This document shows, one piece after another, positions 51,427 through 56,733 of a DNA stretch of 57,087 nucleotides; position 1 is the stretch's first letter, and every line of letters starts with the position of its first letter. The stretch is from Proteiniborus ethanoligenes (GTDB taxonomy: Bacteria > Bacillota > Clostridia > Tissierellales > Proteiniboraceae), in assembly GCF_900107485.1 (NCBI RefSeq), contig NZ_FNQE01000026.1, positions 1 through 57,087 on the forward strand. The letters are read 5' to 3'. Under the pieces are notes generated by a model, which made no database searches, had not been told where the DNA came from, and was given only the letters and a program-made list of their open reading frames with translations. A program made the translations under genes and the position numbers.

Positions 51427-52308
51427 TTAATATTCTATAGCTCCATTAAAATCTAAGTATAGCTCCTTTACATCCCAATTATAGTTATTGGAATTAAGAT
51501 ATTCTTTTATTTTTACTTTGAAATCCCCATCAACCTTATATACAATAGCCATTAAAGTAGGTCCTGCGCCACTTATATATGCACCTAAACAGCCTAAATT
51601 ATAGCATTTGTCAATAATATCATCAAAGCCAAAAATTAATTTTCCTCTGTAGGGTTGATGAAGCCTATCTTCTAATGAGGTCTTTAGCAAATCAAATCTT
51701 CCATTAGAAAACGCCGAAAGGAGTAAGGCTACTCTTCCCACATTATATACTCCATCTTCATAAGAAATATTTTTAGGAAGCACTTCTCTAGCACTACTCG
51801 TAGAAAGGGTGAAATCAGGAATTAGAGCTACAAATTTAATTCCATTGGCTATATTAATTTTATTGTAGTATATTTTATTATTATCCACAACAGATGCAAC
51901 CAGTCCTCCAAATAACGCAGGGGCAATATTATCTGGATGACCTTCTATCCCTGTAGCTATTTCTAGTATTTCATCTTTTGATAAAGGAGAATTGGCTAGT
52001 TTATTGGCTCCAATAACTCCTCCTAAAATACATGTAGCACTACTTCCCAAGCCTCTTGAAATAGGAATATCTGTATCTGCTTCTATTCTTATACCTCTAG
52101 GTCTATATCCTATTATATCAAAGGTTTTCAGCATTGAGGTATATACTAGATTGTTTTCATTGGCATGGTAGTTCTTGCATCCATTTATTTCTAACCCTTC
52201 TGAAGTTTCTATAAATGAAAATCTATTATATAGACTAAGAGCAAGTCCTAATGTATCAAAGCCTGGTCCTAAATTTGCACTTGTGGCAGGTACTTTTACA
52301 TTTATCAT
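51427..52308 (-). CDS. thrB: Homoserine kinase
   Basis: A 293-residue GHMP kinase that phosphorylates homoserine for threonine synthesis. VPATSANLGPGFDTLGLAL near the start, DIPISRGLGSSATCILGG near 84-101 (ATP loop) and YISGAGPTLMAIV near 240 are the three GHMP motifs. Last gene of the threonine operon, three bases after thrC. Confidence 0.95.
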   Translation of the reverse strand: MINVKVPATSANLGPGFDTLGLALSLYNRFSFIETSEGLEINGCKNYHANENNLVYTSMLKTFDIIGYRPRGIRIEADTDIPISRGLGSSATCILGGVIGANKLANSPLSKDEILEIATGIEGHPDNIAPALFGGLVASVVDNNKIYYNKINIANGIKFVALIPDFTLSTSSAREVLPKNISYEDGVYNVGRVALLLSAFSNGRFDLLKTSLEDRLHQPYRGKLIFGFDDIIDKCYNLGCLGAYISGAGPTLMAIVYKVDGDFKVKIKEYLNSNNYNWDVKELYLDFNGAIEY

Positions 52309-52311
52309 TTA

Positions 52312-53787
52312 CTATATCCCTACCTTTAAAAATTTTCTAAGTATGTCTTCCATACCTTCTCTATCGCAATTGTTCTTATGAGCTATTTCCTTGTCTTTAA
52401 GATCTTCTATGGCTTTTGGTATCTTAACATTTGTCTTGCTCCCTAATTTCTCTATTATTTCAAACTCGTCCTTATTATTTATATCTATGCCAATAGATGA
52501 TACAACTTTTCCGCCAAATTTAAAGGGACTAGCAGTAGAAGCTATTATAGTCTTTGTATTATCATTAGTTTCTGATTTATATTTTTGGTATACATTATAT
52601 GCTACTGCAGTATGTGGATCTATTAGATGGTTATTATCCATAAACATTTTATTTATTTCAAAGCCTACTTCTTCTTCTGTTGAATAGGAGCCATAAAAAT
52701 CTCTTAAATCTAAATTATCCATCTTGTAATACCCTAGTTCAGCAAGCTCAACCATTTTATCCTTTACTAAGACACTATCTCCTCCACTTAAATGAAATAA
52801 AAGCCTTTCTAAATTACTTGACAGTAATATATCCATAGACGGAGATGAGGTTAAAATAAGCCTTCTTCTCCTATCATATATACCTGTATCAATGAATTGT
52901 GATAATACATTGTTTTCGTTTGACGCACATATTAGCTTATTTACTGGTAAGCCCATTTCTTTTGCATAATAAGCAGCTAATATATTTCCAAAATTACCTG
53001 TAGGCACTGCAATATTTATCTTTTCATTTTCCTTTATACTTTTTTCCCTTAAAAGAGTTAGATAGCCGTGGAAATAATATACTATTTGTGGTATTAATCT
53101 GCCAATATTAATTGAGTTTGCAGAGGATAGTAGATAGTTGTTTTTACCAAGAAGATTTATAAAATGGTTGTTGTTAAATATGTCCTTTACCCCACCTTGA
53201 GCATCATCAAAGTTCCCATTAATGCCTACAACAAAGGTATTATTTCCTTCCTGAGTAAGCATTTGCATTTTTTGCACTTGACTTACACCATATTCAGGGA
53301 AAAATACAATTATCTTAATTCCTTTTACATTAGCAAAGCCCTCTAATGCTGCTTTACCTGTATCTCCAGAGGTAGCAGTCAGTATTGCTATTTCTTTTTG
53401 TATATTATTTATCCTCATGGACTCCTTTAGCAAATAAGGAAGTATAGATAATGCCATATCCTTAAAGGCTAAGGTTGGTCCATGAAAGAGTTCAAGAAAG
53501 AATGCATCTCCAGCCTTTATTACTGGTACAATATGATCCGTACTAAATTTATTGTCATATGCTTTTTCTATACAATTTTTAAGTCTATCGTTTTCAAAGT
53601 CAGTAAAGAATTCCTTCATTATTACATATGCTAGACCTTTATATTCCATTTCTTTTAAAGCCATAAGATTATCTAGCTTAGGTATGCTCCTTGGAACAAA
53701 AAGTCCCCCTTCCTTTGATAGCCCTTGTATAATTCCTTCACTTGATGAAATAGAAATTGTTTTATCTCTAGTGCTAATATATTTCAT
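52312..53787 (-). CDS. thrC: Threonine synthase
   Basis: A 491-residue pyridoxal phosphate enzyme of the long class. It starts YISTRDKTISISSSEGIIQGLS. The PLP lysine is in GPTLAFKDMALS near residue 110, the phosphate loop in TATSGDTGKAALEG near 142, and IAVPTGNFGNILAAYYAKEMG near 250. It turns O-phosphohomoserine into threonine. It lies 11 bases behind hom. Confidence 0.95.
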   Translation of the reverse strand: MKYISTRDKTISISSSEGIIQGLSKEGGLFVPRSIPKLDNLMALKEMEYKGLAYVIMKEFFTDFENDRLKNCIEKAYDNKFSTDHIVPVIKAGDAFFLELFHGPTLAFKDMALSILPYLLKESMRINNIQKEIAILTATSGDTGKAALEGFANVKGIKIIVFFPEYGVSQVQKMQMLTQEGNNTFVVGINGNFDDAQGGVKDIFNNNHFINLLGKNNYLLSSANSINIGRLIPQIVYYFHGYLTLLREKSIKENEKINIAVPTGNFGNILAAYYAKEMGLPVNKLICASNENNVLSQFIDTGIYDRRRRLILTSSPSMDILLSSNLERLLFHLSGGDSVLVKDKMVELAELGYYKMDNLDLRDFYGSYSTEEEVGFEINKMFMDNNHLIDPHTAVAYNVYQKYKSETNDNTKTIIASTASPFKFGGKVVSSIGIDINNKDEFEIIEKLGSKTNVKIPKAIEDLKDKEIAHKNNCDREGMEDILRKFLKVGI

Positions 53788-53798
53788 ATTATTCTCCT

Positions 53799-55013
53799 TT
53801 ACTCAAGAATTCTAGCAAGAAAATATTTATCCCTATGCACACCTAAAGATGATAATAATTTAATTATCTCTATATATTCTATTTCCTTAGTCCTAAGTGC
53901 AATATTATCATTTGTAGACAATAGCTCCTTAGAAATACTTTCAATATTTTTAAGGATTTCTTCTATAGGTGAAGATATCCTTAAATAATATTCACCCTTT
54001 ATTCTTGTATTTAAGTTTTTAAGTTTTCTTTCTCCTAGAGGGTTTCTTTTTATATATGAGCCCATAATAATATCTACTACATCACTTAAAACTGCATTAG
54101 CTGTTGGAAGCTTACCAGCTCCTGAACCATAAAACTTTAACTCTCCTACATTATCTCCAGAAAAAACTACAGAGTTAAATGCCATATTTACATTGGCAAA
54201 GTAAGAATCTTCTTTTATAATTGTAGGCTGAACTACAGCCGTAAAACCCTCATCTAGCTCCTTAGCTTCACCAATTAGCTTTACTGTGGACTTCATCTTT
54301 TTTATCTGTTCTATATCAAAGGCTGTAATTTTACTTATACCTTCTAACAAAATATCTTCCTCACGAATTTCACCTTGAAGGGCTAAGGTTCCGAGAATTC
54401 TAAGCTTTCGCAAGGTATCGTACCCTTCTACATCTGCTGTTGGATCTGCCTCTGCATATCCTAATTCTTGTGCTGTTTTAAGTACTTCACCATAGTCTAA
54501 TCCTTCATAAAACATTTTAGTTAAAATATAATTACAGGTTCCATTTAAAATTCCCTGAACCACAGTAATATTATTAAGTGTTAAGGCTTCCTGAAGGGGC
54601 TTTAATATAGGAATTCCTCCCCCAACACTAGCTTCATATAAAAAACCTAGGTTTTTTTCAGCAGCTGAGCTAGATAGCTCTTCAAAGTGTTTAGAAACCA
54701 CCGCTTTATTCGCTGTTACCACATCCCTACCTGAATTTAAAGCTCTTTTAATATATCTATAGCTTTGTTCTAAATCACCAGTTAATTCTACAATTATACT
54801 TATGTCCTCATGATTTATTATTTCTTCAAAATCAGATGTAATTATGTTTTCCCCTAAATCTATTTCTCTTTTTTTATTTATATCCTTTACTAAAACTTTT
54901 TTTATTTCAATATCTTTTCCGGTTAAGGCCTTTAATTCTTCCTGTCTTTTATTTAAAATTTCAACTACACCGGCTCCAACTGTCCCTAGACCTAATAAGC
55001 CAATCCCTATCAT
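53799..55013 (-). CDS. hom: Homoserine dehydrogenase
   Basis: A 404-residue enzyme. NAD(P) motif GLLGLGTVGAGVVEIL at the start, TANKAVVSKH near 102, VGGGIPILKPLQEAL near 132 and GYAEADPTADVEGYDTLRKL near 185 are standard. The last 80 residues include a short ACT domain (RISSPIEEILKNIESISKEL) that could bind threonine. GGAGG precedes the ATG; AK ends 17 bases upstream. Confidence 0.95.
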   Translation of the reverse strand: MIGIGLLGLGTVGAGVVEILNKRQEELKALTGKDIEIKKVLVKDINKKREIDLGENIITSDFEEIINHEDISIIVELTGDLEQSYRYIKRALNSGRDVVTANKAVVSKHFEELSSSAAEKNLGFLYEASVGGGIPILKPLQEALTLNNITVVQGILNGTCNYILTKMFYEGLDYGEVLKTAQELGYAEADPTADVEGYDTLRKLRILGTLALQGEIREEDILLEGISKITAFDIEQIKKMKSTVKLIGEAKELDEGFTAVVQPTIIKEDSYFANVNMAFNSVVFSGDNVGELKFYGSGAGKLPTANAVLSDVVDIIMGSYIKRNPLGERKLKNLNTRIKGEYYLRISSPIEEILKNIESISKELLSTNDNIALRTKEIEYIEIIKLLSSLGVHRDKYFLARILE

Positions 55014-55030: not shown

Positions 55031-56347
55031 TTAATCTTCAAAAGCTTCATATATAGCAGCTATTGCCATGTCAAAATCAGCATTTTCAATACCAATTATT
55101 ATATTTAATTCGCTTGACCCTTGAGTAATCATTCTAATATTTATTCCCTTGTTAGCTAATGCTGTGAATATCTTTGCAGATATTCCCTTAGTCCTTATCA
55201 TCCCTCTTCCTACTACTGCTATCAAAGCCATATTAGGATAGCATATTATAGAATCCGGCCTACAGTATATGCGTATCTCTTCTATTACCTTTTGTAGTTT
55301 AGAATTTAACTCTGTATTAGAAATTATAAGCGAAATGGAATCTATGCTTGAAGGCATATGCTCAATTAAAATATTATTTGTTTCTAATACAGTTATTAGC
55401 TTCCTATAAAAATCTTTTTCTAAACTCATTAATGTCTTTTCAATAGAGATAACAGTAAAATCCTTTTTGCCTGCAATACCAGTTATGGTCCCAGTAGAGC
55501 TAACAGGAGTTAAATCATCTACAATCATGGTTCCTGGCTCCTTTGGGGAATTTGTGTTTTTTATATTAATAGGTATGCCTGCTTTTTTTACTGGAAATAT
55601 AGCTTCTTCATGAAGCACTGGTGCTCCCATATAGGAAAGCTCTCTTAGCTCCTTATATGTGATAATTTCAATAGGCTTAGGAGCATTAACAATTCGAGGA
55701 TCTGCCATTAGAAAACCAGATACATCTGTCCAATTTTCATAGAGCTTGGAATTTATTCCTCTAGCTATTATAGCTCCTGTTATATCGGAGCCTCCTCTAG
55801 TAAAGGTTATAATTTCGCCATTTTCCTTAGCACCATAAAAGCCGGGAATAACAGCCTTGGGAATTCCTTCTAATTTAGATTGAACTCTTATTTGAGTAGC
55901 TTCTGGATCAAACTGATCACTTTCATTAAAAACAATTAATTCCTTAGCATCTATGAATTCAAAGTCTAAATATTTTGAGAGTATAATAGCATTTAAATAT
56001 TCTCCTCTACTCCCTGCATAATCCCTAGAAGCACCATTCTGGATTTTTTCTTTTATATCCCTTAATATTTTATTGATATTAATATCTAGCCTAAGATCCC
56101 TGCAGATATCTTCAAACCTAATTTCAATGATTTTATATACTTCATCAAAATTTAATCCATGAGAAGCTAACTGATAACACATGTACAATAAATCCGTAAT
56201 TTTATGATCTTTGTCATTTCTCTTTCCAGGTGCTGAAGGTATTATATACCTTCTTTTATTGTTTGATTCAATAATATCTTTTACTTTAGCAAATTGTTTA
56301 CTATCTGCTAAGGAGCTACCTCCAAATTTCGCTACAATTACTTCCAA
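55031..56347 (-). CDS. Aspartate kinase
   Basis: A 438-residue kinase. VAKFGGSSLAD at residues 5-15, IIPSAPGKRNDKD near 34, FTRGGSDITGAIIA near 192-205 and WTDVSGFLMADPRIV near 220 are the active-site motifs. Two ACT domains follow (about 290-438) for feedback control, presumably by threonine given the operon. The start is TTG at 56345-56347 after GGGGGAG. It opens the threonine operon under the T-box. Other aspartate kinases may exist elsewhere, so I give no lysC/thrA symbol. Confidence 0.94.
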   Translation of the reverse strand: MEVIVAKFGGSSLADSKQFAKVKDIIESNNKRRYIIPSAPGKRNDKDHKITDLLYMCYQLASHGLNFDEVYKIIEIRFEDICRDLRLDININKILRDIKEKIQNGASRDYAGSRGEYLNAIILSKYLDFEFIDAKELIVFNESDQFDPEATQIRVQSKLEGIPKAVIPGFYGAKENGEIITFTRGGSDITGAIIARGINSKLYENWTDVSGFLMADPRIVNAPKPIEIITYKELRELSYMGAPVLHEEAIFPVKKAGIPINIKNTNSPKEPGTMIVDDLTPVSSTGTITGIAGKKDFTVISIEKTLMSLEKDFYRKLITVLETNNILIEHMPSSIDSISLIISNTELNSKLQKVIEEIRIYCRPDSIICYPNMALIAVVGRGMIRTKGISAKIFTALANKGINIRMITQGSSELNIIIGIENADFDMAIAAIYEAFED

Positions 56348-56487: not shown

Positions 56488-56700
56488 ATACTCGTCCAAA
56501 AAGGACGAGTATAAGTATTCTCGCATCCACCTAATTTTCATGGTTTTGCTTTAACGCAGCATACGCATATCCCTAATAATTTCTGTTCAGGATTGAGCTC
56601 ATAGGTGGTTTTCAATCTATTGTATCAAAGAAGTCTTTCAGCCGGTGAACTTCTATCTCTTTTGACCTTAAAAGATTTACTCGTCCTATTCATTGCTTTT
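56488..56700 (-). promoter_or_regulatory. T-box leader (threonine type) of the threonine operon
   Basis: On the minus strand the RNA starts AAAGCAATGAATAGGACGAG. Stem I has AATC/GATT and an apical AGAAGT/ACTTCT hairpin. The specifier is ACC (Thr, 56607-56609) in the context ACC-ACCTATGAG. The T-box motif reads AGGTGGATGCGAG (56522-56534 region): TGGA pairs with a UCCA tRNA end, which fits tRNA-Thr with U73. The terminator pairs 56488-56497 with 56503-56512 followed by TTTTTT. The bulge is shorter than usual. Uncharged tRNA-Thr should turn the operon on. Confidence 0.88.
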
Positions 56701-56704
56701 TAAC

Positions 56705-56733
56705 ATTTTATAGCTTATGCCGAATTATGTCAA
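56705..56733 (-). promoter_or_regulatory. Sigma-A promoter of the threonine operon
   Basis: On the minus strand TTGACA (56728-56733), a 17-base spacer and TAAAAT (56705-56710). The start would be near 56698, exactly where the T-box begins. The insertion sequence ends 20 bases upstream of the -35 box. Confidence 0.82.

Follow-up and report, generated by a model that had tools for sequence, protein, structure and literature searches.

The window, a 57,087-nucleotide stretch of Proteiniborus ethanoligenes DNA, carries at its right end, on the minus strand, a whole threonine T-box leader that lies upstream of genes for aspartokinase, homoserine dehydrogenase, threonine synthase and homoserine kinase. 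We examined the DNA upstream of 90 Tissierellales aspartokinase genes (the window, 29 further loci and 60 stretches, these 60 searched by regular expression alone), of which 27 have a T-box leader upstream; two more leaders, in genomes G219 and G220, were added by a covariance-model search. The features of the locus are as follows.

56705..56733, minus strand: sigma-70-like promoter, TTGACA-17-TAAAAT, agreeing with 11 of 12 consensus positions
56601..56689, minus strand: stem I, from the RF00230 alignment
56689-56685 with 56605-56601, minus strand: stem I base helix AUAGG/CCUAU, with compensatory changes in the 27 leaders
56678..56686, minus strand: GGACGAGTA, formerly proposed as a third pairing partner; its letters are GG from the base of stem I followed by the specifier loop's 5' strand, which ends in the AGUA motif
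56607..56609, minus strand: specifier ACC (Thr), within GAA-A-ACC-A-CC, invariant in 27/27 leaders and fitting the genome's own tRNA-Thr(GGU)
56569..56593, minus strand: stem II, helix AUCC/GGAU, with S-turn, from RNA covariation
56547..56567, minus strand: stem IIA/B pseudoknot, F-box CGUUA, from RNA covariation
56533..56551, minus strand: linker without stem III and without an RRRxG purine string; MFE 0.0, purine motif absent by regular expression
56520..56532, minus strand: T-box strand, with A1 AGG, 5-nt bulge UGGAU (56529-56525) and A2 GCGAG
56502..56509, minus strand: 3' strand of the antiterminator, CUCGU-CCU (the switch strand), from A1/A2 pairing
56488..56512, minus strand: intrinsic terminator ATACTCGTCC-TTTTT-GGACGAGTAT, with a 10-bp stem, 5-nt loop and T run; -15.4 kcal/mol
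55031..56347, minus strand: aspartate kinase (NF006540, 544 bits)
53799..55013, minus strand: homoserine dehydrogenase, hom (NF004976)
52312..53787, minus strand: threonine synthase, thrC (TIGR00260)
51427..52308, minus strand: homoserine kinase, thrB (TIGR00191)

Transcription would start at about 56698, downstream of the promoter-like sequence; the region holds 7 promoter-like sites against 3.6 in shuffles. The leader has the defining parts of a T-box: a specifier triplet in the stem I bulge that fits the regulated amino acid (27/27 leaders), a UGGA complementary to the UCCA of tRNA-Thr, and an antiterminator and terminator that have one strand in common. The genome encodes tRNA-Thr(GGU) and tRNA-Thr(UGU), both with a discriminator U that pairs with the A of UGGA (drawn from 20 matches with 150 of 220 candidates scored, so that the tRNA list may be incomplete). 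The threonine specificity assigned to the leader from the letters alone is thus borne out by the ACC specifier and the thr operon behind it, and it holds in 27/27 leaders.

RF00230 matches the leader over its full length with 86.9 bits (E 1.1e-19), short of the gathering score of 93 bits, and a default Rfam scan therefore lists only the window's other T-box. This second T-box (44255-43987, minus strand, 96.4 bits) has stem III and a UGGUACC bulge, confirming the standard bulge earlier ascribed to the liv T-box, and serves as an in-window control. Among the 27 thr leaders, only two (L039 and L040) reach the gathering score; leaders of this kind are easily overlooked because the threshold misses the other 25.

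Covariation supports most of the predicted fold. The inner three pairs of the stem I base helix form in 24-27 of the 27 leaders, and the helix covaries among AUAGG/CCUAU, UAAGG/CCUUA, AUGGG/CCCAU and GGAGA/UCUCC. Both-side changes occur in 4/4 pairs of stem II and 3/3 pairs of stem IIB, each with 82% of cells paired, while 2/3 of the IIA pairs never vary. In the antiterminator, 100% of A1 cells and 84% of A2 cells are paired, the longer-bulge leaders being misaligned there.

The T-box strand departs from the standard at its bulge. In the window, AGG-UGGAU-GCGAG pairs with CUCGU-CCU, forming 3 bp of A1 and 5 bp of A2 around a 5-nt bulge, where UGGNACC would give a bulge of 7. The sequence-only reading had paired AGG with CCT and GCGAG with CTCGT around a bulge of five or six bases; its coordinates and sequences were verified, and the bulge is five. 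It had also noted the missing ACC and the shortened bulge, which hold for the window (UGGAU) and are common to its relatives. The RF00230 search and the alignment with related thr leaders that it had called for gave a full-length match and relatives whose bulge is not normal either: across 29 thr-operon leaders of Tissierellales, the bulge is 5 nt in 24, 6 nt in two (L038 and L043), 7 nt with ACA in two (L046 and L049) and ambiguous in one (L164). An automatic count over 27 leaders gave 21 of five, 2 of six and 4 of seven, from which L033 was moved by hand to five (a U-U mismatch) and L164 to ambiguous. UGGNACC and its ACC are absent from all 27 leaders and from the two later ones, while the ACC specifier and UGGA are invariant in 27/27. 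By sequence register, 133/133 other T-boxes of the same genome and eight more have a 7-nt bulge. This control set comprises 110 of the 137 T-boxes listed in the eight genomes plus 23 of the own genome, with 7 that the regular expression did not locate read by eye; the census is biased to canonical T-boxes because the RF00230 model favours ACC, and the thr leader of G232 is missing from the list. On the sequence evidence, a short bulge is typical of the thr-operon leader in Tissierellales.

The shortening might be just apparent if the leader paired in a different register, with a 7-nt tRNA-bound bulge (UGGA-NRC) and an A2 of only GAG/CUC. Twelve of the 27 leaders do spell UGGA-AAC, as an ordinary AAC bulge would, but continue with GA instead of RCG. 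The C that precedes GAG hardly varies, and neither of the first two A2 pairs has changed on both sides. Covariation is lacking at two of three A1 pairs and at the A2 pair C-G; A2 does change on both sides in L053 and L055, in favour of the antiterminator. Against this register, the 7x2 internal loop it requires is costlier than the contiguous short-bulge antiterminator in 26/27 leaders (+0.8 versus -4.4 kcal/mol in the window; the exception is L033, and L033 and L164 have zero A2 pairs in this contiguous-versus-loop test), which supports the 5-nt bulge. So do the four leaders with longer bulges (L038, L043, L046 and L049), in which the added nucleotides precede an intact RCGAG. We consider the alternative register unlikely, and it disputes the length of the bulge, not the absence of the purine string described below. 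Two further candidate marks were dropped. The pair at the A2 base is G-U in the window, as in a canonical discriminator, and, over 27 alignment rows, A-U in 16, G-U in 6 and other in 5; loss of G-U is not special, an A being found there in 36/126 ordinary T-boxes. A sequence pattern for 5-nt bulges was non-specific, as it also matched ordinary UGGNAAC-GCG T-boxes.

A standard T-box has stem III, with its flanking purines RRRxG...AA, in the stretch that precedes the T-box sequence. The sequence-only reading overlooked that both appear to have been lost in the thr leaders. Their linkers are 17-30 nt long (median 21), and 24/27 fold no better than -2 kcal/mol; weak hairpins occur in L038 (-2.6), L040 (-2.9) and L043 (-2.1 kcal/mol), so a proper stem III is absent across the 27 leaders, none of which folds better than -2.9 kcal/mol. 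Hairpins were scored on the linker only, since a 75-nt window captures upstream helices. The other T-boxes of the genome (21/23 measurable) have linkers of 29-95 nt that fold at -2.6 or better.

The purine motif (RAG, RGAG or RRRxG) is found in 119/120 ACC/AAC T-boxes from nine genomes, the own one included, where 18 controls without an F-box match were given a 45-nt stretch; the sole miss, L324, has a mislocated F-box, with GAG present in the longer upstream segment. The regular expression is loose, matching a fraction 0.667 of shuffled 25-nt stretches from ordinary linkers. In the thr leaders, the motif occurs in 6/27 (0.222, versus 0.216 in shuffled thr linkers, which is chance level) and in neither of the two later leaders. 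The window leader thus has neither the 7-nt UGGNACC bulge nor the stem III with an RRRxG...AA string of a canonical discriminator and, as far as the letters tell, the thr operon is one in which ACC is gone and the purine string stands at chance level. Two simpler rules were rejected. The link between ACC and the purine string is not strict, since L310, L311 and L380 combine AUA or ACA bulges with a hairpin, which defeats a strict rule that loss of ACC entails loss of stem III. Nor is a short linker alone a distinguishing mark: 22/105 ACC/AAC T-boxes with an F-box have linkers of at most 31 nt that fold weaker than -3, and 8/9 linkers of thrS leaders are equally short.

The thrS leaders offer a comparison for the same amino acid. 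In nine genomes that have both, the purine motif and UGGNACC are present in 9/9 thrS leaders, versus a thr-operon leader with a 5-nt bulge in 9/9, without ACC in 9/9 and without the purine motif in 7/9 (the other two, L032 and L033, contain AAG). The thrS linker measures 20-21 nt with an MFE of 0.0 in 8/9, and the own thrS leader keeps stem III (-10.7). A further 18 T-boxes of the order (L407-L424), chosen for short model matches, all have UGGAACC and linkers no better than -0.6; the purine motif was found by regular expression in 17/18, the 18th (L410) reading AUGAG by eye, and a specifier of ACC or ACU was located in 17/18, known from the leaders alone. Together, the thrS leaders and these 18 T-boxes indicate that in Tissierellales the hairpin can go while the string and ACC stay. 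Such a loss fits the available text of a glyQS study, in which shortening stem III by 4 bp had a minor effect only (PMC6197855).

The thr-operon and thrS T-boxes of the order (L019/L234 and L399-L406) therefore share a Thr specifier and, in 8/9 thrS linkers, a short, hairpin-free spacer, but differ in the purine string (UGAG/AAG) and 7-nt UGGNACC that thrS retains in 9/9, with stem III besides in the own thrS leader. The Tissierellales T-boxes that have lost the hairpin and retained string and ACC (L399-L406 and L407-L424) mostly have Thr specifiers. The own thrS leader (L019/L234; G000:C7:79298-79527, minus strand) has specifier ACU and bulge UGGU, neither of which is a Watson-Crick match to tRNA-Thr(GGU) with discriminator U, on a tRNA list that may be incomplete; the sister thrS leaders have UGGA in 8/8, versus this UGGU. 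The Ile T-boxes of family f179 (L246, L249, L262 and L282) are also without stem III and have ACA, AUA or UUA in place of ACC, but they keep a 7-nt bulge, have an Ile specifier and show the purine motif by regular expression in 1/4. An ileS gene lies behind L249.

A covariance model of the 3' half (R1), built from the 27 leaders and run with strict search filters, gave 28 matches of at least 62 bits in 249 Tissierellales genomes, the next scoring 51.9 bits; 26 of the 28 score by construction, as R1 was built from them, and those in G219 and G220 are new, whereas L164, itself a building sequence, scores 50.5 bits. In an even sample of 398 genomes across the phylum, again searched with strict filters, R1 reached 62 bits in two alone, the own genome and G232. 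Relatives with the leader, their names judged partly from equal leaders, include Anaerosalibacter massiliensis, Tissierella praeacuta, T. creatinophila, [Clostridium] ultunense and Soehngenia longivitae. Leaders of six families retain the specifier, UGGA, stem II, IIA/B and the terminator; the 29 leaders have common ancestry. In G219 (L047/L426, G219:C1:236520-241440), a group II intron match lies between the T-box and aspartokinase, which are about 1.86 kb apart.

The sequence-only reading had further suggested that the switch strand has a third partner. The second copy of GGACGAGTA at the start of stem I was verified in coordinates and sequence (56686-56678), and its 9-mer match in the window is beyond chance, as a 9-mer in common with the terminator arm turns up in only 0.0009 of mononucleotide-shuffled stem I strands. 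From this copy one could build a switch with a third, kinetic state, in which GGACGAGTA of stem I binds the switch strand. The full set of 9 stem I:switch pairs is possible in 5/27 leaders and at least 8 in 12; an unbroken complement of 8-10 bp is found in 11/27 thr leaders versus 0/115 other T-boxes; and, when the RNA is cut before the terminator, 21 of the 22 leaders able to form stem I:switch have it favoured over the antiterminator in energy-only folds, though such folds take no account of the K-turn, S-turn, pseudoknot or tRNA and place the L033 antiterminator in the wrong register.

The relatives, however, argue that this third state is very improbable. The stem I copy equals the terminator arm exactly in 1/27 leaders and does not covary with it: identity of stem I to its own terminator arm is 6.07 versus 6.09 permuted (3353/5000 at least as high), whereas the switch strand does track its own terminator arm (8.93 versus 8.40 permuted, 0/5000). 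The sought conservation of the terminator-matching sequence in stem I thus failed to appear. Pairs between stem I and switch number 7.30 versus 7.22 permuted (299/5000), a lean towards the third state that does not amount to covariation, and the long complement is missing in 16/27 leaders. Stem I forms first, the GG of the copy is part of the base helix of stem I, which covaries, and the own thrS leader has GGACGAGTA too, with a non-matching terminator. The GG of the stem I base and the specifier-loop motif account for the letters of GGACGAGTA in stem I, which naturally has the GGAAGAGTA state in 8/27 leaders. In naive folds we also saw the specifier region ACCACC (56604-56609) pair with the complementary GGUGG of the T-box (56525-56532). 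We dropped this pairing as a signal, as it follows from having an NCC specifier followed by ACC; four leaders (L032, L033, L039 and L040) have a C at the centre of this specifier-pairing segment.

Taken together, these observations are best explained by a transcription-attenuating T-box of the threonine operon that reads tRNA-Thr with a naturally reduced discriminator, a reading to which we assign a probability of about 0.7. The Thr specifier, the UGGA:UCCA complementarity and the strand common to a small antiterminator and a strong terminator are seen directly. With a canonical transcriptional T-box, as defined by RF00230 and in the available text of PMC7583486, the leader shares the long stem I, specifier, stem II, IIA/B pseudoknot, UGGN and an A1/A2 antiterminator overlapping the terminator; it differs in its 5-nt rather than 7-nt bulge and in having no ACC, stem III or RRRxG string. 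Under threonine starvation, stems I and II would capture uncharged tRNA-Thr, whose UCCA end would pair with UGGA and stack on A1, and the antiterminator would hold and allow read-through into the operon; with charged tRNA-Thr, the terminator would form.

How such a leader might sense charging is a separate matter. The available portions of PMC7583486 describe the purines of stem III as a sieve against 2'-aminoacyl-tRNA, ACC as stabilising the discriminator and the purine string as a partner of the bulge. With the stem III purine string and ACC gone, charging must be sensed by the remainder; loss of the purine string, the structural partner of ACC, is the probable reason for the erosion of ACC. 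Our best guess, a conjecture, is steric crowding at the A1/A2 junction, where 1-3 nt join the tRNA:UGGA duplex to A2. EF-Tu holding the charged tRNA may conceivably assist, although charging discrimination is reported to need no EF-Tu in the text available from PMC6197855, which counts against the idea.

A leader that has decayed or become blind to charge, attenuating constitutively or responding to total tRNA-Thr with its sensor end a relic, would also lack ACC, stem III and the purine string. The same portions of PMC7583486 state that an antiterminator without stem III shows no appreciable tRNA binding, which would make the thr leader weak or non-functional. Decay, however, would not be expected to spare the specifier, UGGA, stem II, IIA/B and terminator, several of them covarying, across six families, and we regard it as a distinctly poor explanation, less probable even than the alternative register. 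The preferred reading of a working, reduced T-box can be taken a step further, though only tentatively and at somewhat less than even odds: the thr leaders may form a conserved T-box subclass in which A1, a short UGGAN bulge and A2 alone make up the discriminator, sensing charging without the purine-string/ACC sieve, by crowding through a 1-nt link or by reliance on EF-Tu, alongside a second, thrS T-box for threonine that has the purine string.

Published accounts, so far as their available text goes, describe a different T-box. The discriminator is said to vary in no essential way among known T-boxes and to depend on stem III (PMC7583486), and the bulge is given as one of seven nucleotides (PMC3375634). 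The T-box database TBDB records 48 sequences without UGGN, bulge length not being discussed in the text available (PMC7778990), and Clostridioides difficile has T-boxes before hom and thrC, reported there without structural detail (PMC11477304). In the open-licence PMC literature, covering the available parts of PMC7583486, PMC7778990, PMC2494555, PMC6197855, PMC3375634 and PMC11477304, with the main comparative papers outside this scope, we found no T-box described as short-bulged or as lacking the purine string. The thr leaders of Tissierellales, without ACC, without stem III and mostly without the purine string, beside thrS leaders that keep ACC and string, constitute a natural deletion series. 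Such a series can separate the parts of a T-box that sense the amino acid from those that stabilise the fold, and makes it possible to test on natural variants which parts a T-box really needs.
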